Positions 20,886 through 59,859 of a stretch of DNA of 64,000 bases are shown one piece after another. Numbering within the stretch: position 1 is the stretch's first letter; every line of letters starts with the position of its first letter. The stretch covers positions 1,640,456 to 1,704,455 of the forward strand of contig NZ_JACHNP010000001.1 of NCBI RefSeq assembly GCF_014206815.1, in the 5' to 3' direction. The notes beneath the pieces were generated by a model. It searched no databases. It saw only the letters and a list, made by a program, of their open reading frames with translations, and was not told the origin of the DNA. This stretch comes from Xanthomonas sp. F10 (lineage in GTDB: Bacteria > Pseudomonadota > Gammaproteobacteria > Xanthomonadales > Xanthomonadaceae). The translations under genes were made by a program, and so were the position numbers.

Positions 20886-21075
20886 GGACCCGGGACCCGG
20901 GACCCGGGACCCGGGAAAGCGGTTGCACGGCGTCTGCAATTTGTCGGCGCGTCCATGCATCGGAACTGGCATCGTTCGTTTCTGCTTTGTCCGGAGACCG
21001 CTCCGCTCCGCGCTTAACCTAAAGACCTCGCATCTGCGCTCTTCCGGGCCCCGGGCCCCGGGTGCCGGGTCCCGG
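20886..21075. repeat. Inverted pair of heptamer arrays (GGGACCC class) between ccmE and ccmF
   Basis: The left array (20,886-20,916) holds four tandem GGGACCC-type heptamers. The right array (21,044-21,075) carries the complementary-strand type, GGGCCCC/GGGTCCC. About 127 bases separate them. The arms could fold into a long GC-rich hairpin inside the ccm transcript. The same design recurs at 50,610-50,755, 53,642-53,731 and 59,735-59,859. Confidence 0.85.
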
Positions 21076-21082
21076 CCACACC

Positions 21083-23017
21083 ATGCTTCCTGAGCTCGGC
21101 CAACTCCTGCTCATCCTGGCGCTGCTCACCGCGACGCTGCAGGCGGCGCTGCCGCTGGCCGGTGCGCAGCGCGGCGATGCACGCTGGATGGGCGTGGCGC
21201 GGCCGGCGGCGTTCGCGCAACTGGCGCTGGTCGCCGGCGCCTTCGCGATCCTCACGCATGCCTTCGTGACCCAGGATTTCTCGGTGGCCTACGTGGCCGA
21301 GAACTCCAACTCCTTGCTGCCGCTGGTGTACCGCTACTCCGCGGTGTGGGGCGCGCACGAGGGCTCGCTGCTGCTGTGGACGCTGATCCTGGCGCTGTGG
21401 ACCGGCGCGGTGGCGCTGTACTCGCGGCGCCTGCCGGCCCCGGTGGTGGCGCGGGTGATCGGCACCCTGGCGATGGTCAGCGTGGGCTTCCTGGCGTTCC
21501 TGCTGTTCACTTCCAACCCGTTCGCGCGGCTGCTGCCGGCGCCGCTGGAAGGGCGCGATCTCAATCCGCTGCTGCAGGATCCCGGCCTGGTGATCCATCC
21601 GCCGCTGCTGTACGCCGGCTACGTCGGCTTCGCGGTGCCGTTCGCGTTCGCGGTGGCGGCGTTGCTGGACGGCCAGGTGGACGCGCGCTGGCTGCGCTGG
21701 ACGCGGCCATGGACCAACGTGGCCTGGGGCTTTCTGACCATCGGCATCGCCCTCGGCAGCTGGTGGGCGTACTACGAACTGGGCTGGGGCGGCTGGTGGT
21801 TCTGGGACCCGGTGGAGAACGCCAGCTTCATGCCGTGGCTGGCCGGTGCGGCGCTGCTGCATTCGCAGGCGGTCACCGAGAAGCGCGGCAGCTTCGGCGC
21901 CTGGACCCTGCTGCTGGCGATCGCCGCGTTCTCGCTGTCGCTGCTGGGCACCTTCCTGGTCCGCTCGGGCGTGCTGACCAGCGTGCACTCCTTCGCCGCC
22001 GATCCTGCCCGCGGCCTGTTCATCCTGGTGTTCCTGAGCCTGCTGTGCGGCGGCGCACTGCTGCTGTACGCGCTGCGCGGCGGCCGCGTGGCGGCTGCGG
22101 CCGACGAGGCGCGGCAGCGCTTCGCCCCGGCCTCCCGCGAGACCCTGCTGCTGGCCAACAACCTGCTGCTGACCTGCGCCTGCGCCATGGTGCTGCTGGG
22201 CACGCTGTATCCGCTGCTGGCCGATGCGCTGGACCTGGGCAAGCTGTCGGTGGGGCCGCCCTATTTCGGCACCTTGTTCATCGTGCTGATGGCGCCGCTG
22301 GTCGCGCTGTTGCCGTTCGGGCCGCTGACCCGCTGGCAGCGCGAACAGGCATCGCGGCCGCTGGCCCTGCTGGCGCCCTGGGCCGGCTTGGCCCTGATGG
22401 CCGGCGCGATCGGTTTCTTCCTGGCACCGCAGGGCGCGTGGAAGACCGCCGCCGGCGTCGCCGCCGCCACCTGGGTGCTGCTGGGCACCGCGCGTTTCGT
22501 GTGGAGCCGGCGCCAGCTAAAGGGCAGCCGCTTCACCGCCGAAATGCTGGGCATGACCCTGGCCCACACCGGCATCGCGGTGTTCCTGGCCGGCGCGCTG
22601 CTGGTCGAGGCGCTGGAGCAGCAGCGCGAGGTGGCGCTGGCGCCCGGGCAGCACCTTGACCTGGGCCGCTACCGTTTCGAGCTGCAGGGCCTGGACCAGC
22701 GCAAGGGCCCCAACTACGTGGCCGAACGCGCACACGTGCAGGTGCTGCGCGACGATCGCCCGCTGGCGCTGCTGCACCCGGAAAAGCGCCTGTACGCCAG
22801 CGGCGGCCAGAACATGACCGAGGCCGGCATCCACCCCGGCCTGTTCGGCGACGTCTACGTCGCCCTCGGCGAGCCGCTGGGCGGCAATGCCTGGGCGATG
22901 CGCGTGCACGTCAAACCTTTCGTGCGCTGGATCTGGCTTGGCGCGGCGCTGATGGCGCTGGGCGGTTTCGTCACCGCCGCCGACCGGCGCTTCCGTCGTT
23001 CTCCGGAGACCCCCTGA
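21083..23017 (+). CDS. ccmF: Cytochrome c heme lyase subunit CcmF
   Basis: A 644-residue polytopic membrane protein that joins heme to apocytochrome c together with CcmH and CcmI. The tryptophan-rich heme signature is GWGGWWFWDPVENASFMPWL (about residues 233-252), and many spans cover residues 1-500, with a periplasmic domain before the last span. The start MLPELGQLLLILALL was chosen; an ATG 7 codons upstream reads the heptamer repeat and has no family similarity. The stop overlaps ccmG by one base. Confidence 0.96.
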   Translation: MLPELGQLLLILALLTATLQAALPLAGAQRGDARWMGVARPAAFAQLALVAGAFAILTHAFVTQDFSVAYVAENSNSLLPLVYRYSAVWGAHEGSLLLWTLILALWTGAVALYSRRLPAPVVARVIGTLAMVSVGFLAFLLFTSNPFARLLPAPLEGRDLNPLLQDPGLVIHPPLLYAGYVGFAVPFAFAVAALLDGQVDARWLRWTRPWTNVAWGFLTIGIALGSWWAYYELGWGGWWFWDPVENASFMPWLAGAALLHSQAVTEKRGSFGAWTLLLAIAAFSLSLLGTFLVRSGVLTSVHSFAADPARGLFILVFLSLLCGGALLLYALRGGRVAAAADEARQRFAPASRETLLLANNLLLTCACAMVLLGTLYPLLADALDLGKLSVGPPYFGTLFIVLMAPLVALLPFGPLTRWQREQASRPLALLAPWAGLALMAGAIGFFLAPQGAWKTAAGVAAATWVLLGTARFVWSRRQLKGSRFTAEMLGMTLAHTGIAVFLAGALLVEALEQQREVALAPGQHLDLGRYRFELQGLDQRKGPNYVAERAHVQVLRDDRPLALLHPEKRLYASGGQNMTEAGIHPGLFGDVYVALGEPLGGNAWAMRVHVKPFVRWIWLGAALMALGGFVTAADRRFRRSPETP

Positions 23018-23622
23018 TGTCCGCTCCCGCTCCACGTCGCCTGCCGCTGCCCGCCATCCTGCTGGGCGCCCTGTTCTTCCTCGGCCTGCTGGCGTTGATG
23101 GTGTATGCGGTGCAGCGCTCCGGCAGTGCCGACCGCGACGCGCTGCCGTCGGCGCTGATCGGCAAGCCGGCACCGGCGTTCGAACTGCCGCTGCTGCACG
23201 ATGCCTCGATCCGCGTGCGCAGCAGCGAATTGCTCGGCGCGCCGTACGTGCTCAACGTGTGGGGCAGCTGGTGCCCGGCCTGCCGCGAGGAACACCCGGT
23301 GCTGACCCGCTTCGCGCTGAGCAAGCGCGTGCGGGTGATCGGCTACGACTGGAAGGACAACCGCGAGGACGCGCTGCGCTGGCTGGAACAGCTCGGCAAT
23401 CCGTTCCTGGCGGTGCTGTTCGATCCCGAGGGGCGCACCGCGATCGACTGGGGAGTGGCCGCGGCGCCGGAGACCTTCCTGGTCGATGCGCGCGGCGTGG
23501 TGCGCTGGAAGCATGCCGGCCCGCTGACCGACCAGATCATCCGCGACGACCTGCTGCCGGCCTTGCAGCAAGCCGAGCGCGACGCCCCGCCGACGCGGGC
23601 GCAGGGCAAGGCCACGCCATGA
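23017..23622 (+). CDS. ccmG: Thiol:disulfide interchange protein CcmG/DsbE
   Basis: A membrane-tethered thioredoxin of 201 residues that reduces apocytochrome c or CcmH. One N-terminal anchor (ILLGALFFLGLLALMVYAV) is followed by the thioredoxin fold with active-site WCPAC (Cys86 and Cys89). The acidic and GVxxxPETF region expected of CcmG is present as DWGVAAAPETFLVD. It overlaps ccmH by 4 bases. Confidence 0.96.
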   Translation: MSAPAPRRLPLPAILLGALFFLGLLALMVYAVQRSGSADRDALPSALIGKPAPAFELPLLHDASIRVRSSELLGAPYVLNVWGSWCPACREEHPVLTRFALSKRVRVIGYDWKDNREDALRWLEQLGNPFLAVLFDPEGRTAIDWGVAAAPETFLVDARGVVRWKHAGPLTDQIIRDDLLPALQQAERDAPPTRAQGKATP

Positions 23623-24074
23623 GCCGCGGCCGGCGCGCGCTGCGGCTGGGCTTGCTGGCGCTGCTGGCGTGGTCCACGCTGGCCGGCGCCGAGCCGGTGT
23701 CCGATCCGACGCCGCTGGCCTACCGCTCCACCGCCGAGGAAGCGCGCTTCCATGCGCTGACCGCGGAATTGCGTTGCGTGCAATGCCAGAACCAGTCGCT
23801 GGCCGACTCGCACGCGCAGATCGCCATGGACCTGCGCCGCGAAGTGCTGGAGCTCATGCACCAAGGCAAGTCGGATGCGCAGATCAAGCAGTTCCTGGTC
23901 GATCGCTACGGCGAGTTCGTGCTGTACCGGCCGCAGCTGGAAGCACGGACCTGGCTGCTGTGGTTCGGCCCCTTGCTGCTGCTGGCCGGCGGCGCCGTGC
24001 TGCTGATCCGGATGGTGCGGCGGCGCGCACCGGCGGCCACCGCGCTGCCGCTGCAGGACGAACAGGAATGGTGA
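23619..24074 (+). CDS. ccmH: Cytochrome c maturation protein CcmH (N-terminal type)
   Basis: A 151-residue protein with a signal peptide, the redox motif LRCVQCQNQS (Cys53 and Cys56) and one C-terminal membrane span (LLLLAGGAVLLIRMV). It is the short CcmH/CycL that reduces the apocytochrome cysteines; the TPR part found fused in E. coli is a separate gene (ccmI) here. Confidence 0.95.
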   Translation: MSRGRRALRLGLLALLAWSTLAGAEPVSDPTPLAYRSTAEEARFHALTAELRCVQCQNQSLADSHAQIAMDLRREVLELMHQGKSDAQIKQFLVDRYGEFVLYRPQLEARTWLLWFGPLLLLAGGAVLLIRMVRRRAPAATALPLQDEQEW

Positions 24075-24078
24075 GGCG

Positions 24079-25113: not shown

Positions 25114-25202
25114 CGAACGCATGCGTGCAGGAGCGACCGTGCCTGATCGGGAACGCCCGGTCGCAACTAGGCAAGACGCCAGCAAGAATGCGAAACGTCG
25201 GT

Positions 25203-25267
25203 GTAGGAGCGGCTTCAGCCGCGACGCGCTTTACCAGGAGGCTTGTCGCGGCTGAAGCCGCTCCTAC
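25203..25267. repeat. REP-like inverted pair
   Basis: Two 23-base arms (25,203-25,225 and 25,245-25,267), beginning GTAGGAGCGGCTTC and perfectly complementary, enclose 19 unrelated bases. The same arms occur at 26,718-26,788, with one arm at 15,418. Position just past the ccm operon is typical of REP elements, which fold in RNA and slow 3' decay. Confidence 0.9.
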
Positions 25268-25414
25268 GCGGCAACAGCATGTCGGACTGGATCGCTGCGG
25301 GAAGCGAATGACCAGACGGGCAGTAGATTCGTCCCTGCGTCACTAACGGACGCCATTGCGGCCCGACACGCGCCATCTCGCACCACGCATACGCCGGATG
25401 CGCGATGGCGCAGC

Positions 25415-25420
25415 TAGAAT
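25415..25420 (+). promoter_or_regulatory. Candidate -10 element giving a leaderless MetX-family mRNA
   Basis: TAGAAT ends 6 bases before the ATG of the MetX-family gene, so transcription would begin at or beside the start codon. There is no Shine-Dalgarno sequence in the gap. No good -35 is visible. Confidence 0.45.
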
Positions 25421-25426
25421 CGACGC

Positions 25427-26539: not shown

Positions 26540-26717
26540 CGGCTGCGCGCAATTGCACGTCCGCCATGTCGCGAGGGTGATGATGCACTTCGCTCGTTGT
26601 GGCTGATCCCACGCAAGGCAACACGCTCCGCTCCTGCAAGCGCAATGGTGCGAAAAGCCAGGGGGCGTGCATCCCTGATTCCATCTCAGACCTCGGCCTG
26701 AAAGGCACCAGATGGCG

Positions 26718-26788
26718 CTGTAGGAGCGGCTTCAGCCGCGACCGGCGTTCCCGGTCAGGTCGGGTCGCGGCTGAAGCCGCTCCTACAG
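26718..26788. repeat. REP-like inverted pair between convergent genes
   Basis: Arms of 23-25 bases, the outer ends reading CTGTAGGAGCGG and its complement, enclose about 21 bases. It sits between the 3' ends of the MetX-family gene and cydC, where it may serve both transcripts. Confidence 0.9.
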
Positions 26789-26805
26789 AGCGCTGCGCAG
26801 TAGCG

Positions 26806-28482: not shown

Positions 28483-30275
<1,793 letters not shown>

Positions 30276-37521: not shown

Positions 37522-38779
37522 GCTTCGTCTCCTGGAACAGCGCGTGCAATGCGCCGATCTGTGCCGCCGCGCGGTAGCGCAGGCGCTTGCGTTCGATCCG
37601 CAGGCTGATCAATTGCCGCTCGGCTTCCAGGCGTTCGCGCTGCACGTTCAGCAGCTCGATCACCTCGCGCCGGCCCACGCTCAACTGCTCGCGGTACAAC
37701 TCGGCCACTTCCACCGCCTGCTGCGCCTGCCGCAGCAGCGCCTGCTCGCGCCCGCGCAAGGCCTCGCCGCTGTCGGCGAGGGTCTGTACGGTGCGCCGCA
37801 CCTCGCGGCGCATCGCCTCCAGGTTCCACTGCGCCGCTTCCAGGCGCTGGCGCGCGGCCTGCGGGCGCAGGAACGTGGACATGCCCTGGAACACGTCCAT
37901 GCTCAGCCGCAGCGAAATGGTCGAATCGTTCTGCAGGCGGCCGCCGACGTCGCGACGCAGCGCGGCGGCCTCCAGATTGAGTTGCGGCTTCATCGCCGCG
38001 CGCGCTTCGCGTACTTCGGCCTCGGCCGCGCGTACCTGTTCGCCGGCCTTGCGCAGCAGCGGCGAGGCGTCCACCGCCTGCGCCAGCAACGGCGGCGCCA
38101 ATTGCGGCAATTCCAGCGTCTCCGGTTCGACCAGATCCTCGGCCTCGGCCCCGACCAGCAGCAGGAACTGGTTGCGCAACTCCTGCAGCGCACCCTGCTC
38201 GGTCGCCAACTGGTCCTGGCCGCGGGCCAGTTCCAGCCGCGTACGCTCCAGTTCGCTGCGATCGGCATAGCCGCCGCTGCGCGCCTCGCTGAGGTCGGCG
38301 ATCACCTGCAGGCGTTGCAGATGCGCTTGCACCGCCTGCAGCCGCTGCTGCGCCGCCAACACGTCCAGATACACCTCCACGATCTGCAGCGCAGCGTCGT
38401 CGGCGGCCACCTCCACCGCCGCGTCCTGCCCGCGCTGCTGCGCGCGTGCATTCGCCACCCGGCTCGACACGCGCCCCCAGTCGTACAGCATCTGCGAGAG
38501 ATTGACGTCGTAGACCATCTCGCCCGGGTCCAGCGCCTTGGGCCCGGCGGCGACCGACAACGCCGGGTAGTAGCCGCTGCGGGCGATGCGCACGTCGGTG
38601 GCGGCGCGCGCCGCGTCCGCCATCGCCGCGCGCAACTGCGGCTCGATCGCCAAGCCGCGCTGCACGGCCTGCGTCAGCGACATCGCGCAGGCGCACGCCG
38701 GCAGCGCCAACCACAGCCCGACGGCCAGCGCCGGGCCGGACCGGCGCGTGCGCCGGTCCCCATCCCCCTTCCTCGCCAT
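37511..38779 (-). CDS. TolC-like outer-membrane protein of the type I secretion system
   Basis: A 422-residue outer-membrane efflux protein. A signal peptide (WLALPACACAMSLTQAVQRG) is followed by two alpha-helical TolC repeats, with the typical YPALSV and DVNLSQMLYDWGRV segments in the first half and LRLSMDVFQGMSTFLRPQAA in the second, ending in a heptad-rich helix. Its start codon overlaps the adhesin stop by one base (TGATG). It forms the outer-membrane duct of the secretion complex. Confidence 0.93.
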   Translation of the reverse strand: MARKGDGDRRTRRSGPALAVGLWLALPACACAMSLTQAVQRGLAIEPQLRAAMADAARAATDVRIARSGYYPALSVAAGPKALDPGEMVYDVNLSQMLYDWGRVSSRVANARAQQRGQDAAVEVAADDAALQIVEVYLDVLAAQQRLQAVQAHLQRLQVIADLSEARSGGYADRSELERTRLELARGQDQLATEQGALQELRNQFLLLVGAEAEDLVEPETLELPQLAPPLLAQAVDASPLLRKAGEQVRAAEAEVREARAAMKPQLNLEAAALRRDVGGRLQNDSTISLRLSMDVFQGMSTFLRPQAARQRLEAAQWNLEAMRREVRRTVQTLADSGEALRGREQALLRQAQQAVEVAELYREQLSVGRREVIELLNVQRERLEAERQLISLRIERKRLRYRAAAQIGALHALFQETKHAG

Positions 38780-41700
38780 CAGGCCGTCACCACCGCGAGC
38801 GTGTTGTCCTCCACCAGCAAGGTCGCGGTGCCGAAGCTGTAGACGTGATAGGTGATGCCGTCGATCGCCTGGGTGGTGCCGCTGTCCACCGCGCCGATCA
38901 CGTTGAGCACATCCGCCCCGTCGCCGGTGATCTGCAGGGTGTCGTTGCTGTCGGTGATCGCCAGCACTTCCGACGCGGTCAAGGTCAGCGTGCTGCCGGA
39001 ATCGCCCTTGCCCAGGTCCAAGCGCTCGATGTTGCTCAGGGTGCCGATGCCCGCGGCGTTGTAGTCCAGATCGATGCCGTTGGCGAACAGCAGCGTGTCG
39101 AAGCCGGCGCCACCGTCGATGCTGACGAACGTGTTGCCGGTGATCTGGATGGTGTCGTCGCCGTTGCCGGCCAACACCTGATCGCCGCTGCCGACGTTGA
39201 AGATCAGGTCGCTGCCGTCGCCGGCGAGGATGCGTTCGCTGCTGCCGTCGGCACCGGACAGGATGTCGATGCCGCCGGTGCCATTCACGCTGATCGTGCC
39301 GATGCCCAGGCTGGCGCCGTTGTTGGCCAGGGTGATGCCGTAGCGGGCGCTGTCGTTGCCCTGCGTATCGGTGCCCACCACTTCGAACGACACCTGGGTT
39401 CCCAGGTTGAGCAGGCCCGAGGCGGTGAGCCCGAGTTGGTTCAGCACGCTGGAGCTGAGCAGGTTCAGGGCGAAGTCGCCGCTGGCATCGGCCTGGATCG
39501 GCGTGAGTTCGACATTGAGCGTGGGCGTGATGACCCGGATCGCCAGGCTCGCGTTCGGCTCGGCCTGCCCGCTGAAGCCGAACGTCGCCGGCAGCAGCGC
39601 GAAGTTCACGCCGAAGTCGCCGAGCGTCAGCGGCTGCGCGATGTTGGTGCCCACGCCCAGCGAGACGACCGGGCTGGGATTGCCGGCCGGGTCGGCACCG
39701 ACCACCGAGACCTGCGCGTTCAACAGCTGCGCCCAGCTCAGGTCGATGTCCAGGCCGGTCAGCAGGTCCAGCGAGGCCAGGCCGCTGTTGTCGGCGGCGA
39801 GCGTGGCGGTGGCCTGCACGCCGCCGACGTTGACGTTGACCGTCAGCGCCAGGCCCGGCTCGCCGGAAATCGTCAGCAGGCTGCCGACCAGCGACAGCAC
39901 CGGCGTCGCCGGCGCGACCGTGTCGATGGTGAAGCCGACCGAGGACGACAGCGGGCCGCCGTTGAGGTCGACCGTGACCGTCGCCGCCCCTTGCGGCAAT
40001 GCCGCGCCGCCGCTCGGCGGCAGCACCGATACCAGCACGTTGCCGGCGCTCAGGTCGGCGCTGGTCAGGGTGTGGCTGACGTCGACCTCGTAGCCGTTCT
40101 GACCGGCGAAGTGCACGGTGACCACCTGCCCGACCAGCATGTTCGGCCGCAGCTGCACCGCCACCTGGATGCCGTTGCCGATCTCCGCAGCGTTGATCCA
40201 GGTATCGCCCGCCTCCGCCACGCTGAGCAGTGGCGGCGACAGGTCCGGCGCAGTGAGCAGCGCCGGCGCGCTGACGTTGCCGGCGGCGTCGACCGCCACC
40301 ACCGACAGCGCCTGACCGATCACCAGCGGTGGCGACAGCGGCAGGCTGAAGCTGCCGTTGCCATCCACCTGGATCAGCAGCGGATTGGCGGTATCGCCGT
40401 TCACCACCACGCGCAGTTGCGCATTGGCCTCGGCGGTGCCGCTGAGCAGGCTGCCATCCAGGCTGATCGACACCACCGGCGCCGCTGGCGCCAGCGCATC
40501 GATGGTCAGCGTCGCCGGCGGGCTGGCATTGCCGGCCGCGTCGGTGGCGATGGCGCTGATCACCGTGCCGTTCGGCAATGCAGCCCCCGGCGTCACACTC
40601 CAGTTGCCGGACGCGTCGGCCGTGGCCTGACCGACCATCGTACCGTTGCCGTCGGTGACGGTAATGGTGGCACCGGCTTCGGCGCTGCCGACGATGGCCA
40701 CGCCATTGCTCGCCTGCAGGATCGGGGCGGCGGGCGCCACTGCATCCACGATCAACGTCGCCGGCGCACTGGCGTTGCCCGCGACATCGGTGGCGATGGC
40801 GGTCACCACCGTGCCGTTCGGCAATGCGGTGCCCGGCGTCACGCTCCAATTGCCGGACGCGTCGGCGGTGACCTGGCCGATGAGCGTGCCGTTGCCATCG
40901 GTGACGGTGATCGTCGCCCCCGCTTCCGCGCTGCCGACGATGGCGACGCCATTGCTCGCCTGCAGGATCGGCGCCGCCGGCGCCAGCGCATCCACGGTCA
41001 ACGTTGCCGGTGCACTGGCGTTGCCGGCCGCATCGGTGGCGATGACGGTCACCACGGTGCCGTTCGGCAACGCCGCGCCCGGCGTCACACTCCAGTTGCC
41101 GGACGCGTCGGCCGTAGCCTGGCCGATCAGCGTGCCGTTGCCGTCGGTCACGGTGATCGTCGCGCCGGCTTCGGCGGTGCCGACGATCGCCAGGCCATTG
41201 CTGACCTGCAGGATCGGGGCGGCCGGGGCCACGGCATCGATGGTCAGCGTCGCCGGCGGGCTGGCATTGCCGGCCGCGTCGGTGGCGATGGCGCTGATCA
41301 CGGTGCCGTCGGGCAAGGCGGCCCCCGGGGTCACGCTCCAGTTGCCGGACGCATCGGCGGTGGCCTGCCCGATCAGCGTGCCGTTGCCGTCGGTGACGGT
41401 GATCGTCGCACCCGCTTCCGCGCTGCCGACGATGACCAGGCCATTGCTCGCCTGCAGGATCGGGGCGGCCGGCGCCAGTGCATCCACGGTCAACGTCGCC
41501 GGCGCACTGACATTGCCGGCCGCATCGGTCGCGATGGCGGTCACCACGGTGCCGTTCGGCAATGCGACGCCCGGCGTCACGCTCCAGTTGCCGGCCGCAT
41601 CGGCGGCGACCTGGCCGATCAGCGTGCCGTTGCCGTCGGTCACGGTGACCGTCGCACCCGCTTCCGCGGTGCCGACGATGGCGATGCCATTGCTCGCCTG

Positions 41701-44700
41701 CAGGATCGGCGCCGCCGGCGCCAGCGCATCCACGATCAACGTTGCCGGTGCACTGGCATTGCCGGCCGCATCGGTGGCGATGGCCGTCACCACGGTGCCG
41801 TCGGGCAACGCCGTCCCCGGCGTGACGCTCCAGTTGCCGGAGGCATCGGCGGTGGCCTGCCCGATCAGCGTGCCGTTGCCGTCGGTCACGGTGACCGTCG
41901 CGCCGGCTTCGGCGGTGCCGACGATCGCCAGGCCATTGCTGACCTGCAGGATCGGGGCGGCCGGGGCTACGGCATCGACGATCAGTGTCGCCGGCGCACT
42001 GGCGTTGCCAGCGGCATCGGTGGCGACGGCCGTCACCACGGTGCCGTCGGGCAACGTCGCCCCCGGCGTGACGCTCCAGTTACCGGACGCATCGGCGGTG
42101 GTCTGGCCGATCAGCGTGCCGTTACCATCGGTGACGGTGACCGTCGCGCCGGCTTCGGCGGTGCCGACGATCGCACTGCCGTTGCTCGGCTGCAGCACCG
42201 GGGCGGCCGGCGCCACGGCATCCACCGTGGTCGTCGCCGGCGCGCTGGCGTTGCCGGCCGCGTCGGTGGCGATGGCGCTCAGCACGGTGCCGTCGGGCAA
42301 TGCCGCCCCCGGGGTGATGCTCCAGTTGCCGGAGGCATCGGCCGTGGCCTGGCCGATCAGCGTGCCGTTGCCGTCGGTCACGGTGACCGTCGCGCCGGCT
42401 TCGGCCGACCCGACGATCGTCAGGCCGTTGCTCGGCTGCAGGATCGGCGCCGATGGTGCCGTCGTATCTACGGTGGTCGTACCCGGCGCGCTGACGTTGC
42501 CGGTCGCATCGGTGGCCACGGCGTTGATCACCGTGCCATCGGGCAGCGGGGCTCCGGGGGTCACGCTCCAGTTGCCGGACGCATCGGCCGTGGTCTGGCC
42601 GATCAGCGTGCCGTTGCCGTCGGTGACGGTGACCGTCGCCCCGGCTTCGGCGGTGCCGACGATCGCGGTACCGTTGCTCGGCTGCAGCACCGGGGCGGCC
42701 GGCGCCACGGCATCGACGGTCAGCGTGGCCGGCGCGCTGGCGTTGCCCGCCGCGTCGGTGACCACGGCGTTGACCACTGTGCCGTCGGGCAGCGCCGTGC
42801 CGGGCGTGATGCTCCAGTTGCCGGACGCATCGGCGGTGACCTGGCCGATTAGCGTGCCGTTGCCGTCGGTGACGGTGACCGTCGCCCCGGCTTCGGCGGT
42901 GCCGACGATCGCACTGCCGTTGCTCGGCTGCAGCACCGGCGTCGCCGGCGCCACGGCATCCACCGTGGTCGTCGCCGGCGCGCTGGCATTGCCGGCTGCG
43001 TCGGTGGCGATGGCGCTCAGCACGGTGCCGTCGGGCAATGCCGCCCCCGGGGTGATGCTCCAGTTGCCGGAGGCATCGGCCGTGGCCTGGCCGATCAGCG
43101 TGCCGTTGCCGTCGGTCACGGTGACCGTCGCGCCGGCTTCGGCCGACCCGACGATCGTCAGGCCGTTGCTCGGCTGCAGGATCGGCGCCGACGGTGCCGT
43201 CGTATCTACGGTGGTCGTGCCCGGCGCGCTGACGTTGCCGGTCGCATCGGTGGCCACGGCGTTGATCACCGTGCCATCGGGCAGCGGGGCTCCCGGGGTC
43301 ACGCTCCAGTTGCCGGACGCATCGGCGGTGGTCTGGCCGATCAGCGTGCCGTTGCCATCGGTGACGGTGACCGTCGCCCCGGCTTCGGCGGTGCCGACGA
43401 TCGCGGTACCGTTGCTCGGCTGCAGCACCGGGGCGGCCGGCGCCACGGCATCGACGGTCAGCGTGGCCGGCGCGCTGGCGTTGCCCGCCGCGTCGGTGAC
43501 CACGGCGTTGACCACTGTGCCGTCGGGCAGCGGGGCTCCCGGGGTCACGCTCCAGTTGCCGGACGCATCGGCGGTGGTCTGGCCGATCAGCGTGCCGTTG
43601 CCGTCGGTCACGGTGACCGTCGCGCCGGCTTCGGCGGTGCCGACGATCGCACTGCCGTTGCTCGGCTGCAGCACCGGGGCGGCCGGCGCCACGGCATCCA
43701 CCGTGGTCGTCGCCGGCGCGCTGGCGTTGCCGGCCGCGTCGGTGGCGATGGCGCTCAACACGGTGCCGTCGGGCAACGGGGTAGCCGGGGTCAGGCTCCA
43801 GGTGCCGGAGGCATCGGCGGTCGCCTGGCCGATCAACGTGCCGTTGGCGTCGGTGACGGTGACCGTCGCGCCGGCCTCGGCGCTCCCGGCGACGACGCTG
43901 CCGTTGCTCGGTTGCAGCACCGGCGCCGCCGGCGCCACCGCATCCACGGTGGTGGTCGCCGGCGGACTGACCGTGCCTGCGGCATTGCTGGCGACGGCGG
44001 TGATCACCGTGCCGTCCGGCAGCGGCGTGGCCGGGGTGAAGCTCCAGTTGCCCGCGGCATCGACGACGGCCTGGCCGATCGGCGCGCCATTGCCGTCGCT
44101 CAGCGTGATGGTGGCGCCCGCTTCGGAGGTGCCGGCGATCACGCTGCCGTTGGTCGCCTGGATGATCGGTGCCGCCAGCAGATCCGGCGCCTGCACGCTG
44201 GTCGGGGGGCTGTTGTTGCCGGCCGGATCAGTCACCACCACGGTCAGCGTCTGGCCGTCGGTCAGCGGCGGCTGCAACGGCAGGCTGAAGCTGCCGTCGC
44301 CGCCCACCACGACGGTGAAGTCGGGAACGCCGTCGCCATTCGCATCGACGCCCACCGTCGCGCCCGCCTCGGCGGTGCCGGTCAAGGTACCGCCATCGGC
44401 CGAGACCTGCAGATTCCCGGCCGCCGCCGGCGGCGTAGTGTCGGGCGCATTGACGCTGGCGCCGGGGCCGGTGTTGCCGGCCGTATCGGTCACCACCACG
44501 GTCACGGTCTCGCCGTTGGTCAGCGGCGGCTGCAACGGCACGCTGAAACTGCCGTCGCTGCCGACCACGGCGGTCACGTCCGGCACGCCATCGCCATTGG
44601 TGTCCACACCCACCGTTGCACCCGCCTCCGCGGTACCGGTGAGGCTGCTGCCATCCGCCGCGACCTGCAGGTTGGCGGCCGCAGCAGGCGGGGTGACGTC

Positions 44701-45468
44701 CGGTGCCTGCACCATCGCCGGCGGGCTGGAGGCCCCATCCGGGCTGGTGACCACCACGGCCACCATCTGGCCACCGACCACCGGCGCCGGCAGCGTCACG
44801 GTGAAGCTGCCGTCGGTGCCGACCACGACCACCGTGTCCACCTGTCCGTCGCCATCGGCATCGACGCCGACCGAGTGGCCGGGAGGCGCGTTGCCGCTGA
44901 TCTGGGTGCCGTCCGGGGAGATCTGCAGATTGGTCGCCACGGCTGGTGCCGACGGCTGCGGTTGCGGCTGGGGCTGTGGCTGCACGATCTCGTTGCGGTC
45001 GTCCTCGCTGCCCATGCTGGCCAGCGCGCCCGCGCCGAGTGCGACGCCGCCCGCCATCAGCCAGGGCGCAGCCAGCCCACCGGCCGCGCCGCCCGCGCCG
45101 GCCACGCCGGCCGCGGTCAAGGATTCGAACCCGGCATCGCCGCCCACCGGCGCATAGCTGGCCAGCAACACGGCCCCTTCGCCGCCGGCGAACTGCACCG
45201 CCAGCAGATCCTGCTCCTGCGTCAGGAACAACGCGCTCGGCTCGGACGCAGGGTCGAAGAAGTGAACGATGCGGACCGTCTCGCCGTTCTTCATCCGCAC
45301 CAGAAGATCGTCGCCTTCGCGGCTGTAGGCGGCGACCCTGTCGGGCGACACATCCAGTACCACCTGGCTGGCCTGGGTCAGTCGCACCACGCCGTCGGCC
45401 GGCAGCGGGACGGCGTGGGCGCGGGCGATGTCGGCACCGTGCGGGACAACCTTGACCTGGATACTCAT
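38779..45468 (-). CDS. BapA-type giant repetitive adhesin, type I secreted
   Basis: A 2,229-residue surface adhesin, probably for biofilm formation. The start MSIQVKVVPHGADIARAHAV was chosen because GGAGTG lies 6 bases upstream; an in-frame ATG 17 codons earlier has no such context. Domains in order: a BapA prefix domain (about residues 1-105), a Gly/Ala-rich hydrophobic stretch (120-155), three Ig-like units with Asp-rich DTNGDGVPD motifs (about 185-430), fifteen 82-residue Ig-like repeats (430-1,659), several divergent Ig-like domains, and a C-terminal type I secretion target with GDGSDLIFN, GNGDDTIQ and GGAGFDTLLF calcium-binding-like units. It heads the secretion operon. No cleavable signal peptide is present, consistent with type I export. 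Confidence 0.92.
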   Translation of the reverse strand: MSIQVKVVPHGADIARAHAVPLPADGVVRLTQASQVVLDVSPDRVAAYSREGDDLLVRMKNGETVRIVHFFDPASEPSALFLTQEQDLLAVQFAGGEGAVLLASYAPVGGDAGFESLTAAGVAGAGGAAGGLAAPWLMAGGVALGAGALASMGSEDDRNEIVQPQPQPQPQPSAPAVATNLQISPDGTQISGNAPPGHSVGVDADGDGQVDTVVVVGTDGSFTVTLPAPVVGGQMVAVVVTSPDGASSPPAMVQAPDVTPPAAAANLQVAADGSSLTGTAEAGATVGVDTNGDGVPDVTAVVGSDGSFSVPLQPPLTNGETVTVVVTDTAGNTGPGASVNAPDTTPPAAAGNLQVSADGGTLTGTAEAGATVGVDANGDGVPDFTVVVGGDGSFSLPLQPPLTDGQTLTVVVTDPAGNNSPPTSVQAPDLLAAPIIQATNGSVIAGTSEAGATITLSDGNGAPIGQAVVDAAGNWSFTPATPLPDGTVITAVASNAAGTVSPPATTTVDAVAPAAPVLQPSNGSVVAGSAEAGATVTVTDANGTLIGQATADASGTWSLTPATPLPDGTVLSAIATDAAGNASAPATTTVDAVAPAAPVLQPSNGSAIVGTAEAGATVTVTDGNGTLIGQTTADASGNWSVTPGAPLPDGTVVNAVVTDAAGNASAPATLTVDAVAPAAPVLQPSNGTAIVGTAEAGATVTVTDGNGTLIGQTTADASGNWSVTPGAPLPDGTVINAVATDATGNVSAPGTTTVDTTAPSAPILQPSNGLTIVGSAEAGATVTVTDGNGTLIGQATADASGNWSITPGAALPDGTVLSAIATDAAGNASAPATTTVDAVAPATPVLQPSNGSAIVGTAEAGATVTVTDGNGTLIGQVTADASGNWSITPGTALPDGTVVNAVVTDAAGNASAPATLTVDAVAPAAPVLQPSNGTAIVGTAEAGATVTVTDGNGTLIGQTTADASGNWSVTPGAPLPDGTVINAVATDATGNVSAPGTTTVDTTAPSAPILQPSNGLTIVGSAEAGATVTVTDGNGTLIGQATADASGNWSITPGAALPDGTVLSAIATDAAGNASAPATTTVDAVAPAAPVLQPSNGSAIVGTAEAGATVTVTDGNGTLIGQTTADASGNWSVTPGATLPDGTVVTAVATDAAGNASAPATLIVDAVAPAAPILQVSNGLAIVGTAEAGATVTVTDGNGTLIGQATADASGNWSVTPGTALPDGTVVTAIATDAAGNASAPATLIVDALAPAAPILQASNGIAIVGTAEAGATVTVTDGNGTLIGQVAADAAGNWSVTPGVALPNGTVVTAIATDAAGNVSAPATLTVDALAPAAPILQASNGLVIVGSAEAGATITVTDGNGTLIGQATADASGNWSVTPGAALPDGTVISAIATDAAGNASPPATLTIDAVAPAAPILQVSNGLAIVGTAEAGATITVTDGNGTLIGQATADASGNWSVTPGAALPNGTVVTVIATDAAGNASAPATLTVDALAPAAPILQASNGVAIVGSAEAGATITVTDGNGTLIGQVTADASGNWSVTPGTALPNGTVVTAIATDVAGNASAPATLIVDAVAPAAPILQASNGVAIVGSAEAGATITVTDGNGTMVGQATADASGNWSVTPGAALPNGTVISAIATDAAGNASPPATLTIDALAPAAPVVSISLDGSLLSGTAEANAQLRVVVNGDTANPLLIQVDGNGSFSLPLSPPLVIGQALSVVAVDAAGNVSAPALLTAPDLSPPLLSVAEAGDTWINAAEIGNGIQVAVQLRPNMLVGQVVTVHFAGQNGYEVDVSHTLTSADLSAGNVLVSVLPPSGGAALPQGAATVTVDLNGGPLSSSVGFTIDTVAPATPVLSLVGSLLTISGEPGLALTVNVNVGGVQATATLAADNSGLASLDLLTGLDIDLSWAQLLNAQVSVVGADPAGNPSPVVSLGVGTNIAQPLTLGDFGVNFALLPATFGFSGQAEPNASLAIRVITPTLNVELTPIQADASGDFALNLLSSSVLNQLGLTASGLLNLGTQVSFEVVGTDTQGNDSARYGITLANNGASLGIGTISVNGTGGIDILSGADGSSERILAGDGSDLIFNVGSGDQVLAGNGDDTIQITGNTFVSIDGGAGFDTLLFANGIDLDYNAAGIGTLSNIERLDLGKGDSGSTLTLTASEVLAITDSNDTLQITGDGADVLNVIGAVDSGTTQAIDGITYHVYSFGTATLLVEDNTLAVVTA
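40492..44181 (-). repeat. Fifteen tandem 246-bp repeats (82-residue Ig-like units) in the adhesin gene
   Basis: Each unit encodes about 82 residues with the core GTAEAGATVTVTDGNGTLIG and ends TDAAGNASAPATLTVDAV or close to it. The period is 246 bases throughout with no frame loss. Units near the middle are almost identical and units at the ends diverge, a pattern of unequal exchange. Confidence 0.92.
42183..43658 (-). repeat. Tandem duplication of a three-repeat block (2 x 738 bp) in the adhesin gene
   Basis: Segments 42,921-43,658 and 42,183-42,920 are near-identical copies of the same three 246-bp units, including the rare variant units ending TTTVDTTAPSAPILQ. The same landmark strings recur exactly 738 bases apart (for instance at 42,691 and 43,429). 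This is a recent event on top of the older repeat array. Confidence 0.88.
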
Positions 45469-47185
45469 GGCGAACACTCCTATCGCGAAATGGGACGGCA
45501 GCGTGCGAGCGCAAGCCAAAGGTGTTGGGCGGTCGGCGCGACAGCACGCCGTGCCGGCCGCTGCGCAGGCAAGACCTCACCTGCGCGGCCCGATTGGTCC
45601 ACGACAAGCATTGGGATTGACGATCAGGCGACGCGGAAGGCGACGAACGCGCTACCGCGGCACGTCTACGGGCAGAACGCGCCTAGCGTCGACAGCGTGG
45701 GGATGCCCGATCGGGCGGGCGGCGGCAGCGGAACGCGAGGCACGGCGAACGGGACACACCGGCGGTATCGATAGACATCACGGACCCTCCTTCCTTGAGT
45801 CGCTCACAGTTCGAAAGCGGTGCAGCAAACACGCGTGCAGACGCAGTGCGCTTAGCTCCCCCCGGGCCGCCCCGACGGAACCGCCAATGGTGCCGGCCCG
45901 CCTTTCACTACTGAAGCGATCACGCAAATATGGATGCTGGCAACAGCGCCGACGTCGTATGCAATGCACCTCCGTCTGCACGCGGCGATCTTTGCCAACG
46001 ACGCCACGCGATGGCAATAAAGCGTCACTCACCGTTTCTGAAAATGTGTTGAGCACCAACAAAAGATGACGGTTTTTTCACCATGTCATCTACCTAATTT
46101 AAGGCGTGTTTGCGCAAGACCGCGCGGCGGTGCGCGGCGTGGACGACAATGACGACGCGCGCCGGTGCGCTCTGCAAGCGATTGCAAACATGTCGAAGCA
46201 GCGCCGTACCTGTGCGTACGCAAACCATGCATACACGCGCACCGTGGGCACACACGCTGGAGCGCAGCTGCGCACCATGGAGCGATCGCGCGCGATGGCG
46301 TGGTCAAGCGACGACCAGGCCGGATCTGTACGCCAGCGCATGGCGGGACGCGCAGCCTGGAAGGCATGGCGCAGTCGTGCGGAAGCAGCCGGTTTTTAGC
46401 GCTTTTTTGCAGACAATGTCTGCTGCCACGTTCGTATCCCGCGGCAAGACTGCGCGACCAGCACCGATACGGCCACGGGCAACTCGGGTTGCATAGCGCG
46501 TAGCGACCTCCCTTGTTGATGCCTTGGCGCTCGGCGAGATCGGTGATGCCGGCGATGACCCATCGCCCTTTGTCGAACAGATGACCAGACATGCGATGAG
46601 GTCGCGCCGGCGACACCATGGCAGTGACATCCATGCACCTGGCTTCCATCGTCGGCATGATCCCTTCGTCGCTGGCGAAGGCGACCGGGCTGGTGGCGGA
46701 GAACCTGCTGTGGCTCTTCCGCAGCACCGTCTTCGATCCGATGGAGACGATCGCACTCGACGCGCTCGCGCCGAGCAGCCGCATCATGATCTCGGCTCTC
46801 CCAGTCCGACCGACAATGACCAGCACGCCCGCGTCGTGCAGACGCTCCTCGCCGGCGCCAGCGGACCGATCGCTGCGGATGGACGCGAAAGCAGTGCGAA
46901 GGGGTGCATCGCCTGTTCGCGCCCGGCAGCCAACTCCTGCAGTTCGCGGGGTCGGCCATCGTCGACACCCTGAACACGCGCTTCGCTGCCATCCCGACGA
47001 TCGCCCGCCGTTTCGGCCACGGCCAGGCGCCACCGGGCGCGCGCGCATTGCTGCGAGGACCTGCACGCGTCCGCACCGCCAGTGACCCATGCATCGCGCC
47101 CCGAGCCAGGCGGCGGCGCCGGCAGCGCCGCCATCTGGCCATCAACATCCCCGCCGCGACGGCGCAGGCGGCAACCGCCGCGCGT
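45469..47185. other. Gene-poor region upstream of the adhesin operon
   Basis: About 1.7 kb with no credible gene on either strand. The part next to the adhesin (45,469-45,780) is GC-rich leader; 45,900-46,110 is distinctly A+T-rich and includes a hairpin-forming stretch at 46,064-46,091; 46,110-47,185 holds open frames on several strands but none with a recognisable domain, a ribosome-binding site and neighbours that fit. A short HTH-like string is noted at 46,510-46,553. The adhesin promoter must lie here. Confidence 0.6.
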
Positions 47186-50609: not shown

Positions 50610-50755
50610 CGGGACCCGGGACCCGGGACCCGCAAGGCTGGGCGGCTGCCGAGTGCCGCCAAGCCAACACATCGCAAAAGCACGGCCAGCGCGACGGCAA
50701 CACCCCGCCGCTAGGTCGTCGTTCCGGGCCCCGGGTCCCGGGCCCCGGGTCCCGG
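50610..50755. repeat. Inverted pair of heptamer arrays (GGGACCC class) between proB and proA
   Basis: Left array 50,610-50,632 has three GGGACCC-type units; right array 50,724-50,755 carries GGGCCCC/GGGTCCC units. About 91 bases lie between. The right array falls inside the proB reading frame and encodes its last residues. Confidence 0.85.
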
Positions 50756-51907: not shown

Positions 51908-51911
51908 GGGA

Positions 51912-52291: not shown

Positions 52292-52325
52292 GATCAAGGC
52301 GCGGGACCGAAGCCTCTCCCACGCA

Positions 52326-53624: not shown

Positions 53625-53641
53625 TAGGGGTCCTTTTTTTG

Positions 53642-53731
53642 CGGGACCCGGGACTCGGGACCCGGGACCTGGAAGAGCAAAAGCATTGGCTCTTGCTTCT
53701 TCGGGTCCCGGGCCCCGGGTCCCGGGTCCCG
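53642..53731. repeat. Inverted pair of heptamer arrays (GGGACCC class) between argC and argH
   Basis: Left array 53,642-53,672 and right array 53,702-53,731 are close together, and the ~29 bases between them are themselves partly self-complementary (AAGAGC with GCTCTT). The whole forms one long GC-rich hairpin of about 90 bases, the most compact of the four elements. Confidence 0.87.
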
Positions 53732-53737
53732 ATGAAT

Positions 53738-55317: not shown

Positions 55318-55343
55318 GGGGTCGGTCCTAGGCGAAAAGTCGC

Positions 55344-56660: not shown

Positions 56661-56739
56661 GGCGTGGGGCGGTGTCCGAAGGAATCCAGGGTGGACGCGA
56701 TCGCGGGATCGGTCCGGGCGACGTGGGAAGGCGCGCGGC

Positions 56740-57837
56740 TCAGCGCGCGCCGTTGATGATGCGGTGCACCGAGACGGCGTAGCGCTGCAGTTGCTCCAGC
56801 GTCACGAACTCATCGGCAGTGTGCGCCTGGGCGATGTCGCCCGGGCCATAGACCAGCGCGGTGTAGCCGCCGGCGGAGAACAGCGAGGCCTCGGTCCAGA
56901 AGTCCACCGCGTTGCCGATCGGCAACTCCAGCGCATCGGCGACATCGCGCGCGGCCAGGCGCTTGTCTTCGGCGCGGGCGACGTCGCCGGAGGGCAGACT
57001 CGGCCCGCGGAAGGTCTCCTCGAAGTGCGCCGCGGCCGGCTCGGCGAAGCCGGCGAAGGTCGCCAGCAGCGCGTCCACGTCCATCGACGGCAGCGGGCGG
57101 AAGCCGAAGCGCAGCTCCGCCGCCGGCGCGATCATGTTGGCCTTGATCCCGCCTTCGACCCGGCCGATGTTGAAGCGCAGCCCGGTCAGCCCGCCGAAGC
57201 GCGCATGCGCAAGCGACTCCACGTGGTCCAGCGCACGGCCGCCCCAGCGCATCGCCTGGTGCAGCGCACTGGCCGCGGCGTCCTGCTTGCCCGAGGCGTG
57301 GCCGGCGCGGCCGGCGAAGCGCATCAGCACCGAACTGATGCCGCGGTGCGCCAGCACCGCCTCGCTCATGGTCGGCTCGGCCACCAGCACCGCCTCGTAG
57401 GCGATATCGCGGGCCAGGAACGCGGCGATGCAGCGCGGGTCGTTGGCTTCCTCGTCGCTGGAGAACAGGAACGCGGCATCGCCGTCGCCGGCATTGGCCG
57501 CGGCCAGCAGCGCCGCCGCCGCGCCCTTGATGTCGCACACGCCCAGGCCGACCACGCGGTCGTCCAGGCGCCGCATCACGTGCGGATCAGCGCTCCAGTG
57601 CGGCGAATCCGGCACCGTGTCCAGGTGCACGTTGAACAGGTACTTCGGCGTGCCGCGCACCGCATACAGGCTGACCGCGCCGGCGCCGTGGTCGATCACC
57701 TCCACGGTGAAGCCGGGCAGTTGCGCGCGGATGTAGTCGAAGATGCCATCGGTCCCGATCGCCCGCGGCGGATTGCGGGTGTCGAAGGACACCAGTTCTT
57801 TCAGGTGGGTCAGGGTGGATTCGAGCAGGTCTGTCAT
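56740..57837 (-). CDS. argE': N-acetylcitrulline deacetylase (ArgE')
   Basis: A 365-residue M20-family metallohydrolase that removes acetate from N-acetylcitrulline, the step that completes the acetylated pathway used in Xanthomonas. Metal-site motifs are visible: FNVHLDTVP (His and Asp), [18 protein letters not shown] (Glu) and VAEPTMSE, with the C-terminal AHTADEFV His. It lies between argA/B and the GNAT-argG pair, and argF' (acetylornithine carbamoyltransferase) supplies its substrate. A generic acetylornithine deacetylase is the alternative but is less likely in this setting. Confidence 0.9.
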
Positions 57838-57848
57838 GGCGGATCGGA

Positions 57849-58298
57849 TCAGGCGGCCGTCGCCGCGGCCTGGTAGATGTCGGGACGCAGCACTTCCATC
57901 AGCGTCTGCGGCCGCGCCGGCGCGGCGAAGCCGTACTGCGCATACAGCGCATGCGCATCGGAGGTGGCGAGCATGAAGCGACGCAGGCCTTGCAGCTGCG
58001 GGTGGGCCATCACCGCCACCAGCTGCTTGGCGTAGCCGCGGCCGCGGTAGGCGTCGAGCACGAACACGTCGGCGAGATAGCCGAACGTCGCCCCGTCGGT
58101 GATCGCCCGCGCGAACGCCACCTGCCCCACGCCATCGAGATAGCCGCCGAAGCACAGCGAGCCGGCGATCGCCCGCTGCACCGTGTCCAGCGGGATGCCC
58201 AGGCTCCAATAGGCCTGCTCGCTGAGGAAGCGATGGATCAACGGCAGATCCAGTTCCTGCTTGTCGGTGCTGATGCGCAGTGCGTGCATGGGTTCCAT
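57849..58298 (-). CDS. GNAT family N-acetyltransferase
   Basis: A 149-residue acetyltransferase with the acetyl-CoA binding motif RGRGYAKQLVAVMAHP preceded by TFGYLADVFVLDAY and ending YAQYGFAAPARP. The start could also be the ATG three codons further in (58,289). The substrate is unknown. It sits 11 bases from argE' and 245 bases from argG, with a stem-loop repeat element in that gap. Confidence 0.85.
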   Translation of the reverse strand: MEPMHALRISTDKQELDLPLIHRFLSEQAYWSLGIPLDTVQRAIAGSLCFGGYLDGVGQVAFARAITDGATFGYLADVFVLDAYRGRGYAKQLVAVMAHPQLQGLRRFMLATSDAHALYAQYGFAAPARPQTLMEVLRPDIYQAAATAA

Positions 58299-58306
58299 CG
58301 CAGTGG

Positions 58307-58537
58307 CCCCCTTCTCCCACTGGGAGAAGGTGCCCCCGAAGGGGGCGGATGAGGGGCGCCTCGCGACACTTCGAGAAGCGCCCAGGCCGAACGCGTCGCC
58401 ACGCGCCCGGATGGCGAACGATGGGAGCAAATGCTGCAGCAGTTCCCCATGGCTGGCGCGTGGCGACGCGTTCGTCATGTCGGTTCCGAAGGCTTCCTGC
58501 GGCGCCCCCAACCCCTCTCCCAAAGGGAGGGGGGCTC
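58307..58537. repeat. Stem-loop repeat element (CCTTCTCCC ... GGGAGAAGG class)
   Basis: The left end (58,307-58,356) has the stem CTTCTCCC-ACT-GGGAGAAG followed by CCCCCGAAGGGGG; the right end (58,500-58,537) has CCCCTCTCCC-AAA-GGGAGGGG. The two ends are roughly complementary. The same components are seen at 63,539-63,688. It lies between argG and the GNAT gene. Confidence 0.82.
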
Positions 58538-58543
58538 TAAGCG

Positions 58544-59779
58544 TCAGCGGTTGACCTGCGCGTACAGCGTCGAGCTCATCCCGAACAGCTTGATGAAGCC
58601 CTCGGCCTCGGCCACGCCCCAGTCCGCCGACTGCGCGTAGGTGGCGCCCTTGGCGTTGAGCAGGTGCGGCGACTTCACCGCCACCGCGTCGACGCGGCCG
58701 CCGCGGGTCTCCAGCGTCACTTCGCCGTTGACCATCGCCTGCGACGACTTCAGGAAGGCTTCCAGGTCAGTCTTCAGCGGATCGTGGTAGAAGCCTTCGT
58801 AGACCAGCTCCACCCACTTGCGCGCCACGTCCGGCTTGAAACGGTTCTGCTGCTTGGTCAGCACCGCGTCCTCCAGCGCGCGGTGCGCGGCCAGCAGCGC
58901 CACCAGGCCCGGCGCCTCGAACACGATGCGGCCCTTCAGGCCGATCACGGTGTCGCCGGTGTACACGCCACGGCCCACGCCGTACGGCGCGAACAGCTTG
59001 TTGAGCTTGGCCAGGATCTGTTCGCCCGGCAGCGCCTTGCCGTCGAGCTCGACCGCCTCGCCCTGCACGAACTTCAGCTTCACCGTCAGCGGCTCGGTCG
59101 GCCACGCGCTGCGCGGCGCGCACCAGCCGCGGGCGCCCTCGCCCGGCGCTTCCCAGCGGTCGATCTCGCCGCCGGACATGGTCAGGCCGAGCAGGTTCTC
59201 GTTGATGGTGTAGGCCTGCTGCTTGGCGCGCACACCGAAGCCGCGCTCTTCCAGGTACTTCTGCTCGTAGGCGCGGGTCTGGGTGTGTTCCTTCTGGATC
59301 TCGCGGATCGGCGCGACGATCTCGTAGTCGCCCAGCGCCTTGACCGCCAGGTCGAAGCGCACCTGGTCGTTGCCCATGCCGGTGCAGCCGTGCGCGATGG
59401 TCTTGGTGCCCAGTTCCTCGGCGCGCTTGAGCGCGGCATCGACGATCAGGTAGCGGTCGGACACCAGCAGCGGATACTGGCCCTGGTAGCCCTCGCCGGC
59501 CCACACGAACGGCTTGACGAAGCCGGCCCAGATCGCCGGGCCGCCATCGACGGTGACGTGGCTGGCCGCGCCCAGTTCCGCCGCGCGCTTCTCGATGAAG
59601 TCGCGCTCCTCGGCATCCACGCCGCCGGTATCGGCGAACACCGTGTGCACGGCATAGCCCTTGGCCTGCAGGTAGGGAATGCAGAAGCTGGTGTCGAGGC
59701 CGCCGGAGAAGGCGAGGACGATGTCCTTGAGGCCGGGAGTGGGGAGTGGGGAATCGGGAATGGTAGAAGCGGTGCTCAT
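58544..59779 (-). CDS. argG: Argininosuccinate synthase with repeat-derived N-terminal insertion
   Basis: Joins citrulline and aspartate with ATP. The P-loop-like motif [16 protein letters not shown] is at about residues 22-37, with [12 protein letters not shown] and [16 protein letters not shown] as further family segments. The protein has 411 residues. Residues 6-17 ([12 protein letters not shown]) come from the heptamer repeat array and separate the normal start from [10 protein letters not shown], where other ArgG proteins begin within 3-4 residues. The insertion is in frame and outside the catalytic core. Confidence 0.95.
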
Positions 59780-59859
59780 GGTTGTTTCCTTATCACGCGT
59801 AAAAGTGGGGGCTAACGCTGTTGCTGTACCGATTCTCTATTCCCGATTCCCGATTCCCG
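59735..59859. repeat. Inverted pair of heptamer arrays (GGGAATC class) at the argG/argF' junction
   Basis: Left array (59,735-59,763) has GGGAGTG/GGGAATC units and lies within the 5' end of argG; right array (59,831-59,859) has the complementary ATTCCCG units and lies around the end of argF'. About 67 bases separate them. It is an A+T-richer version of the arrays at ccmE/ccmF, proB/proA and argC/argH. Confidence 0.82.

Follow-up and report, generated by a model that had tools for sequence, protein, structure and literature searches.

Facing heptamer arrays in the F10 window

Our interest was directed to facing arrays of 7-nucleotide (nt) repeats in the plant-associated bacterium Xanthomonas sp. 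F10 (genome G000, 4.78 Mb), within a window that comprises the whole stretch of DNA analysed (64,000 nt, G000:C1:1640456-1704455). By ArgC comparison, Xanthomonas sp. NCPPB 1128 (97%) is the nearest of the named relatives that were retrieved. An array is defined here as a run of tandem 7-nt units; main counts use arrays of at least three units, while looser counts also admit two-unit arrays. The array with the G-rich strand is termed the G-arm and the complementary array that faces it the C-arm. Units were typed as C (GGGAC..), T (GGGATT.) or A (GGGAAT.), and each array received its type by majority vote over its units. The original prediction had placed four such facing pairs in the window. 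All four were confirmed with matching types, and the controls exclude chance: the detector found seven arrays of at least three units in the window, while 50 block shuffles together gave five and the reversed window none. Sites 1 to 3 are of the GGGACCC type and site 4 is of the GGGAATC type; at each, the array faces a partner that is largely its reverse complement, and the G-arms lie on the + strand and the C-arms on the - strand.

Site 1 lies between the genes for CcmE and CcmF (CcmF/NrfE family), which were assigned by protein family match. Its G-arm (20886..20919), of the (GGGACCC)4 type, is positioned 13 nt 3' of the ccmE stop codon, and its C-arm (21044..21075), built of GGGGCCC and GGGTCCC units, lies 7 nt 5' of the ccmF ATG at 21083; the loop between them (20920..21043) resembles the C-type variant found at the same junction in G003, one of two further comparison genomes of the genus (the other being G018). 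At site 2 a (GGGACCC)3 G-arm (50610..50632) lies upstream of proA, a gene on the - strand, and the loop (50633..50723) contains the proB stop codon (50711-50713), while the C-arm (50724..50755) is in frame and encodes the last codons of proB. Site 3 occupies the argC-argH junction with a G-arm of GGGACCC and GGGACTC units (53642..53669), a facing array (53702..53731), and a loop (53670..53701) that is itself an imperfect inverted repeat and extends the stem. Site 4 joins argG and the N-acetylornithine carbamoyltransferase gene (argF'), both on the - strand. The G-arm (59735..59763; GGGAGTG and GGGAATC units) lies within the N-terminal codons of argG, the loop (59764..59828) contains the argG start codon (59777-59779) and upstream region, and the C-arm (59829..59859) spans the last codons and stop of argF'. 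The description of all four pairs as lying between genes thus stood in part only, given the argG and argF' codons at site 4 and the ProB tail at site 2. A fifth site, absent from the original prediction, is a lone C-arm of GGGATTC and GGGAATG units at approximately 16661..16692 (- strand) with no partner array.

The proposal of a structured element was supported by folding. The predicted RNA of all four sites folds better than shuffled sequence (z = -3.75, -4.06, -12.03 and -3.75 for sites 1 to 4, respectively), and at site 1 only 1 of 200 shuffles folded equally well.

Polarity, period and arm matching across the family

Heptamer arrays of this general kind have been described before. The accessible part of Rehm et al. 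2015 (PMC4692102) reports 186 and 183 GGGAATC/GGGANTN arrays in two Xanthomonas genomes, mostly intergenic near the ends of open reading frames and with a preference for four units, together with 70 convergent facing pairs in the genome abbreviated Xcc and 75 in Xac. The definition given there calls for at least two tandem GGGANTN heptamers, at least one of them GGGAATC. Site 4 with its GGGAATC units falls within that definition, while sites 1-3 fall outside it (position 6 of GGGACCC is C, and GGGAATC is absent) and are a variant rather than members; units such as GGGACCG and GGGACGC are likewise excluded. The shared features are nevertheless extensive: the same genus, G-rich 7-nt arrays, four units, location at reading-frame ends, and facing pairs (4/4 window sites and 29 in the F10 sample described below). 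The same paper also cites cyanobacterial heptamer repeats (Calothrix, Nostoc), which are tandem, G-rich and present at many intergenic places but differ in that only a few facing pairs are reported, in Nostoc. The family is therefore already known; the GGGACCC class, heptamers without GGG and the dynamics of type switching are its new part. What the accessible part of the 2015 paper does not report is polarity measured against other periods, type matching of arms, non-GGG heptamers, turnover of types within a species, and arms around coding segments.

The original prediction had called for a search of the genome and its relatives for tandem heptamers with inverted partners. The three-unit pattern CGGGANYCGGGANYCGGGA has 147 matches in the whole F10 genome (73 forward, 74 reverse), with no match for the reversed-pattern control. 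It is present in 32 of 60 relatives, among them all 18 from the genus, two of which (G002 and G016) are small genomes with only 6 and 3 matches. Array pairs were counted in 864 kb of F10 DNA (two blocks totalling 800 kb plus the 64-kb window). This sample holds 100 arrays of at least three units, and neighbours within 300 bp of each other comprise 29 G-then-C, 3 G-G and no C-then-G arrangements. Comparable G-then-C counts were obtained in F10 (27) and a conspecific genome, G060 (29), over 800 kb each, and in G003 (17) and G018 (21) over 400 kb each; in these four genomes pooled, which share sites, there were 7 G-G, 7 C-C and no C-then-G neighbours.

We then scanned lags of 5-13 nt for facing pairs of the same unit in F10 DNA and 80 relatives, which contribute one locus each to our junction comparisons, are the best 80 of 195 and are not independent. 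Lag 7 gave 56 facing and 6 direct pairs, while the other eight lags pooled gave 2 facing and 1 direct. The G-richer arm comes first in 38 of the 56 facing pairs; the remaining 18 resemble GGGACCC, are balanced in G and C and start with the A strand, and none is C-first. Facing pairs are thus specific to the 7-nt period with the G-strand first, a property new relative to the accessible literature. Four of the 56 lack GGG ([Pseudomonas] boreopolis, Pseudoxanthomonas wuyuanensis, Luteimonas marina and Rudaea), and the heptamers with the same architecture in other lineages are GTGATTS, AGCGGTG, GAGAAAC and AGGGCYN. The last of these was counted in G057, a genome of another family of the order, where it has 78 and 119 matches; among 100 places listed of 197, there are 12 plus-then-minus pairs within 400 bp and no minus-then-plus pair. 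Arms with four G-tracts could form a G-quadruplex, and quadruplex formation in vitro was reported in 2015 (PMC4692102). A G-quadruplex cannot be the shared constraint, however, because the same geometry occurs with heptamers lacking GGG, and a quadruplex role cannot be the whole explanation of these repeats.

The facing arms agree in type. Both arms were of one type in 27/27 F10 pairs (shuffle mean 13.2, maximum 23 in 10000), and this agreement is again new relative to the accessible literature. Likeness between arms was 0.789 for partners (n=42), compared with 0.583 for arms at different junctions within one genome (n=116) and 0.586 for the same arm in other genomes (n=918). Only sites at which the detector accepted both arms enter the direct two-arm comparison across genomes (26, 11, 20 and 9 rows). 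Agreement extends to within-type composition in the relatives, in T-type arms at position 7 and in C-type arms at positions 6 and 7, more weakly at position 5; no such match was found in A-type arms (n=9) or in the F10 genome. Exact copying of partner arms in F10 was tested unit by unit and rejected, since register matches numbered 39/104, against an expected fraction of 0.41.

Arms are alike and spacers are not, as had been observed for the window. Loops of about 20-280 bp overall (median 70.5 bp in 38 elements) were compared all against all; strong matches were nested repetitive extragenic palindromic (REP) sequences of the GTAG type, and weak ones came for the most part from a short edge motif adjoining the arms, read by eye as GCAAAAGC / GCTTTTGC. 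By eye, the consensus reads GCC-[GGGANNS]about 4-GCAAAAGC-loop-GCTTTTGC-[SNNTCCC]about 4-GGC. When 30 loops from 15 selected sites were searched on both strands of the DNA sampled for this analysis, the off-site matches were one stretch of 29 nt, loops bearing REPs (B2) and orthologous places in G003 or G018, with no inverted copies. As to the source of loops, one had no match in phages and another none in plasmids.

Type switching and junctions without the pair

Comparison with the conspecific genome G060 demonstrated that the type differs between strains at many places. The orthologous place was located for 60/63 F10 clusters, with flank identity of about 97% (mean 97.4% in the first block). 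Types in F10 and G060, in that order, were TT at 30 places, TA at 12, CA at 9, CT at 3 and AA at 3, with 3 further C-type places having no array in G060. Arrays are therefore present in both genomes at 57 places and differ in type at 24 of these. None of the 15 C-type sites of F10 is C-type in G060 (A at 9, T at 3, no array at 3), and the whole-genome matches to the C/A/T patterns are 93/16/229 in F10 and 0/115/205 in G060. Across other members of the genus they range from 718/3/19 to 1/224/88. Over 39 sites in one 400-kb block, the commoner patterns in F10, G060, G003 and G018, in that order, were TTTT (8), TTTA (7), CATA (4) and TATT (3), which suggests that T is often the older state.

Loops usually changed along with the arms. 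At same-type sites, loop identity was at least 0.83 in 6/9 cases, while the mean likeness of loops at 13 switched sites did not exceed that of mismatched ones (permutation, 617/2000). In one example, a T-type loop that is 96% identical in F10, G003 and G018 has no match in G060, where an A-type element occupies the place. The flanking DNA, by comparison, is conserved: identity 80-320 nt from the arms was 0.97-0.98 at switched sites and 0.93-0.95 at same-type sites, and was 0.93 at 40-80 nt from switched arms. Flanks at switched sites are thus intact beyond 20-40 nt, with no sign of imported DNA past 40 nt. The argF'/argG junction behaves similarly, with A- and T-type variants in close relatives (the window and L031; L063 and L073) and, among 20 Xanthomonas loci, a variant unlinked from gene sequence beyond 30 nt. 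Type switching within one species between nearly identical neighbouring genes is new relative to the accessible literature.

Arms also occur within coding sequence. In F10 but not G060, arms flank a segment near the end of MurF that is 52/54 identical between the strains, adding 21 nt on each side, and arms likewise flank a segment of an IcmF-like protein that is 99/117 identical; a single arm lies inside the coding sequence of valyl-tRNA synthetase (ValRS). The names derive from protein family searches, in which MurF exceeds the family cut-off; the IcmF and ValRS frames are partial and do not reach the cut-offs for full-length proteins. The MurF site carries C-type units in G003 and none in G018. 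Because the flanked MurF and IcmF segments are preserved, a pair can surround pre-existing sequence. Such paired arms around coding segments are new relative to the accessible literature.

Empty sites, for which the original prediction had proposed to look, were found at the argC/argH junction. In Pseudoxanthomonas the two genes overlap by 4 nt in 7/19 genomes and arrays of at least three units are present in 2/19; in Stenotrophomonas a gap of 12-75 nt separates them in 15/17 and such arrays are present in 0/17. The pair is hence not required for the operon, as relatives lack an array there. In L049, L051, L063, L072, L073 and others, a different dispersed repeat (TGCGAGTCCCTCGCAAGAGCCCGCACATCC...) occupies the argC/argH junction, where other Xanthomonas carry the heptamer pair.

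Origin of the paired repeats

In behaviour, the pairs resemble the small mobile repeat suggested by the original prediction, being dispersed, type-matched, of fixed polarity and subject to turnover between strains. On balance we lean towards a foldback- or REPIN-like paired hairpin repeat of the Xanthomonadaceae that is distributed genome-wide and turns over in place. REPINs are inverted doublets of REP sequences moved by REP-associated tyrosine transposases (RAYTs), and their palindromic REP arms have a GTAG foot. The window pairs share with them two inverted arms, a variable loop, solitary remnants and dispersed intergenic placement, but have arms made of direct 7-nt arrays with edges (by eye) GCC...GCAAAAGC, with no GTAG foot and no palindromic arm. 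Drosophila foldback elements similarly have inverted arms of short tandem repeats around unrelated middles; the heptamer pairs differ in being bacterial, with 7-nt units, loops of 20-280 nt and no known transposase. A heptamer element consists of a G-arm of about four 7-bp repeats, a loop unrelated between sites and a facing complementary C-arm, and the arms can form a long hairpin in DNA or RNA. In this reading, lone arms look like remnants, and a resident element gives way in place to one of another type, lineage by lineage. The hairpin, or a strand break at it, may seed the copying of one arm onto its partner, with a new loop perhaps taken up during the process, while the asymmetric edge motif on the 3' side of the G-strand may set the polarity.

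Several observations weigh against such an element. A classical mobile element would carry its interior, whereas the 38 loops have no interior common to sites; they are strongly alike only through nested REPs and so lack the shared interior of miniature inverted-repeat transposable elements. Two loops were found in full only in F10 (1/149 family genomes and 1/20 genus genomes, respectively), and no consistent target-site duplication was seen by eye. Polarity is less strict once two-unit arrays are admitted (44 G-then-C, 6 G-G, 3 C-C and 2 C-then-G in 864 kb), arm types are mismatched in 6 of the 75 pairs of a wider, non-independent set (69/75 agree), and partner arms in F10 have no unit-by-unit register match. 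At 3 of the 13 switched sites loop identity is 0.65-0.68, so that these loops could have diverged from one another instead of having been replaced. Over the 20 nt next to the arms, identity is 0.67 at switched sites and 0.85 at same-type sites, which places the element edges near, not exactly at, the arms. Finally, no driving enzyme was found, Y1_Tnp/RAYT being the one transposase family tested.

A RAYT driver was considered and rejected. In 18 of 20 fetched RAYT neighbourhoods (L225 and L226 were left out), no array of at least three units lies within 500 bp of the chosen frame; the frame chosen in L222 spans 919 codons, so the flank downstream of it does not belong to the gene itself. By eye, 14 of the 18 frames have REP-like sequences next to them. 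A Y1_Tnp match is present in F10 and in 16/18 same-genus relatives, and the two relatives without it are G002 and G016, the small genomes with few array matches. The coincidence is probably better explained by shared gene loss, given the small size of both genomes and the absence of arrays beside RAYT genes. The sole Y1_Tnp (RAYT-like) match of F10 itself lies in L211 (C3:164681-171001), and a GTAG-type REP pair is located just downstream of it.

Two other origins remain live rivals. Growth in situ, which we consider unlikely, would need no mobile unit: short imperfect inverted repeats in permissive positions would expand by 7-nt slippage and be kept matched by template switching across the hairpin. 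Template switching is indeed reported, in the accessible parts of two papers, to make the arms of inverted repeats uniform (PMC8604942) and to generate hairpins (PMC8794818). The additional 21 nt on each side of the preserved MurF segment is the kind of change expected, as are ccmE/ccmF junctions (resolved in 17/20 genus genomes, leaving out G009, G002 and G016) that share a nearly identical loop of 44-51 nt yet differ in unit subtype in both arms. Slippage by itself, one of the origins first suggested, leaves matched arms, fixed polarity and the joint change of arm and loop unexplained; even with template switching, this origin does not account for genome-wide types (C pattern 93 vs 0 in two conspecific genomes), the change of most loops, the common edge motif or the strict polarity, and the absence of both unit-by-unit matching in F10 and inverted loop copies also argues against it. 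The other rival, that old junction alleles move among strains and species by homologous recombination in flanking genes, seems to us quite unlikely. In its favour, species have arm-plus-loop variants in common, as at argF'/argG, where the A-type variant of the window resembles that of X. euvesicatoria and the close relative L031 is T-type; G060 and G018 also have A-type loops in common at 5/10 switched region-A sites searched, and the IcmF loop (99/117) lies between flanks of 97-98% identity. The flanks of switched sites, though, carry no donor signal at 40-80 or 80-320 nt, variant and gene sequence are unlinked past 30 nt at argF'/argG, and random exchange would mix types within each genome, yet G060 has no match to the C pattern.

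The pairs are probably not a dedicated operon regulator. It is very unlikely in our judgement that they are functional mRNA hairpins that set differential expression or protect mRNA ends in operons, even though predicted RNA hairpins are stable at 4/4 window sites and are located at co-directional gene junctions. In the accessible part of the 2015 paper most of the repeats are transcribed in Xac, and transcript starts and stops are commoner at quadruplex-capable than at control repeats, but its authors were unable to assign the repeats a part in gene regulation (PMC4692102). The conserved function in RNA processing or decay originally envisaged is not supported: orthologous junctions frequently lack an array, show overlapping genes or carry other repeats, and arms also lie inside the coding sequences of MurF, IcmF and ValRS. 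No T run follows the stem in the transcribed direction at any of the four window sites, as read from sequence, which is inconsistent with intrinsic terminators. If the pairs do influence operon mRNA, this is more likely a tolerated side effect than the reason for the repeat.

A broader idea, which we advance only tentatively, is that a trans-acting system as yet unknown rewrites these hairpin repeats genome-wide, such that a lineage adopts one heptamer type and arms and loop are replaced with flanking genes untouched. The constraint would then be the 7-nt period and facing geometry rather than sequence or G-quadruplex, because other heptamers have the same architecture in other lineages. Were an agent to rewrite repeats in place, bacteria would have a new route for exchanging non-coding DNA, including ribosome-binding sites and start codons. 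The repeats are abundant in an important bacterial genus, their function was left open in the accessible part of the 2015 paper (PMC4692102), and type change between intact flanks makes their origin testable by resequencing closely related strains.

Other features were observed in F10. At the Rfam gathering threshold the whole window contains one tRNA and one Xoo5 small RNA (RF02242, 103.7 bits; 60995-61118, - strand), the latter, known from Xanthomonadaceae, lying just upstream of argF'. A 246-bp unit is repeated fifteen times in tandem (40487-44176) inside an open frame of 2246 codons (38779-45519, - strand). Elsewhere in the genome, a dispersed repeat reaching about 340 bp in length occupies L121:1-346 (C1:200001-200346); a 1200-base query that includes it matched 71-88 places in each of three relatives, and almost all of the matches listed fall in the first 350 bases of the query.

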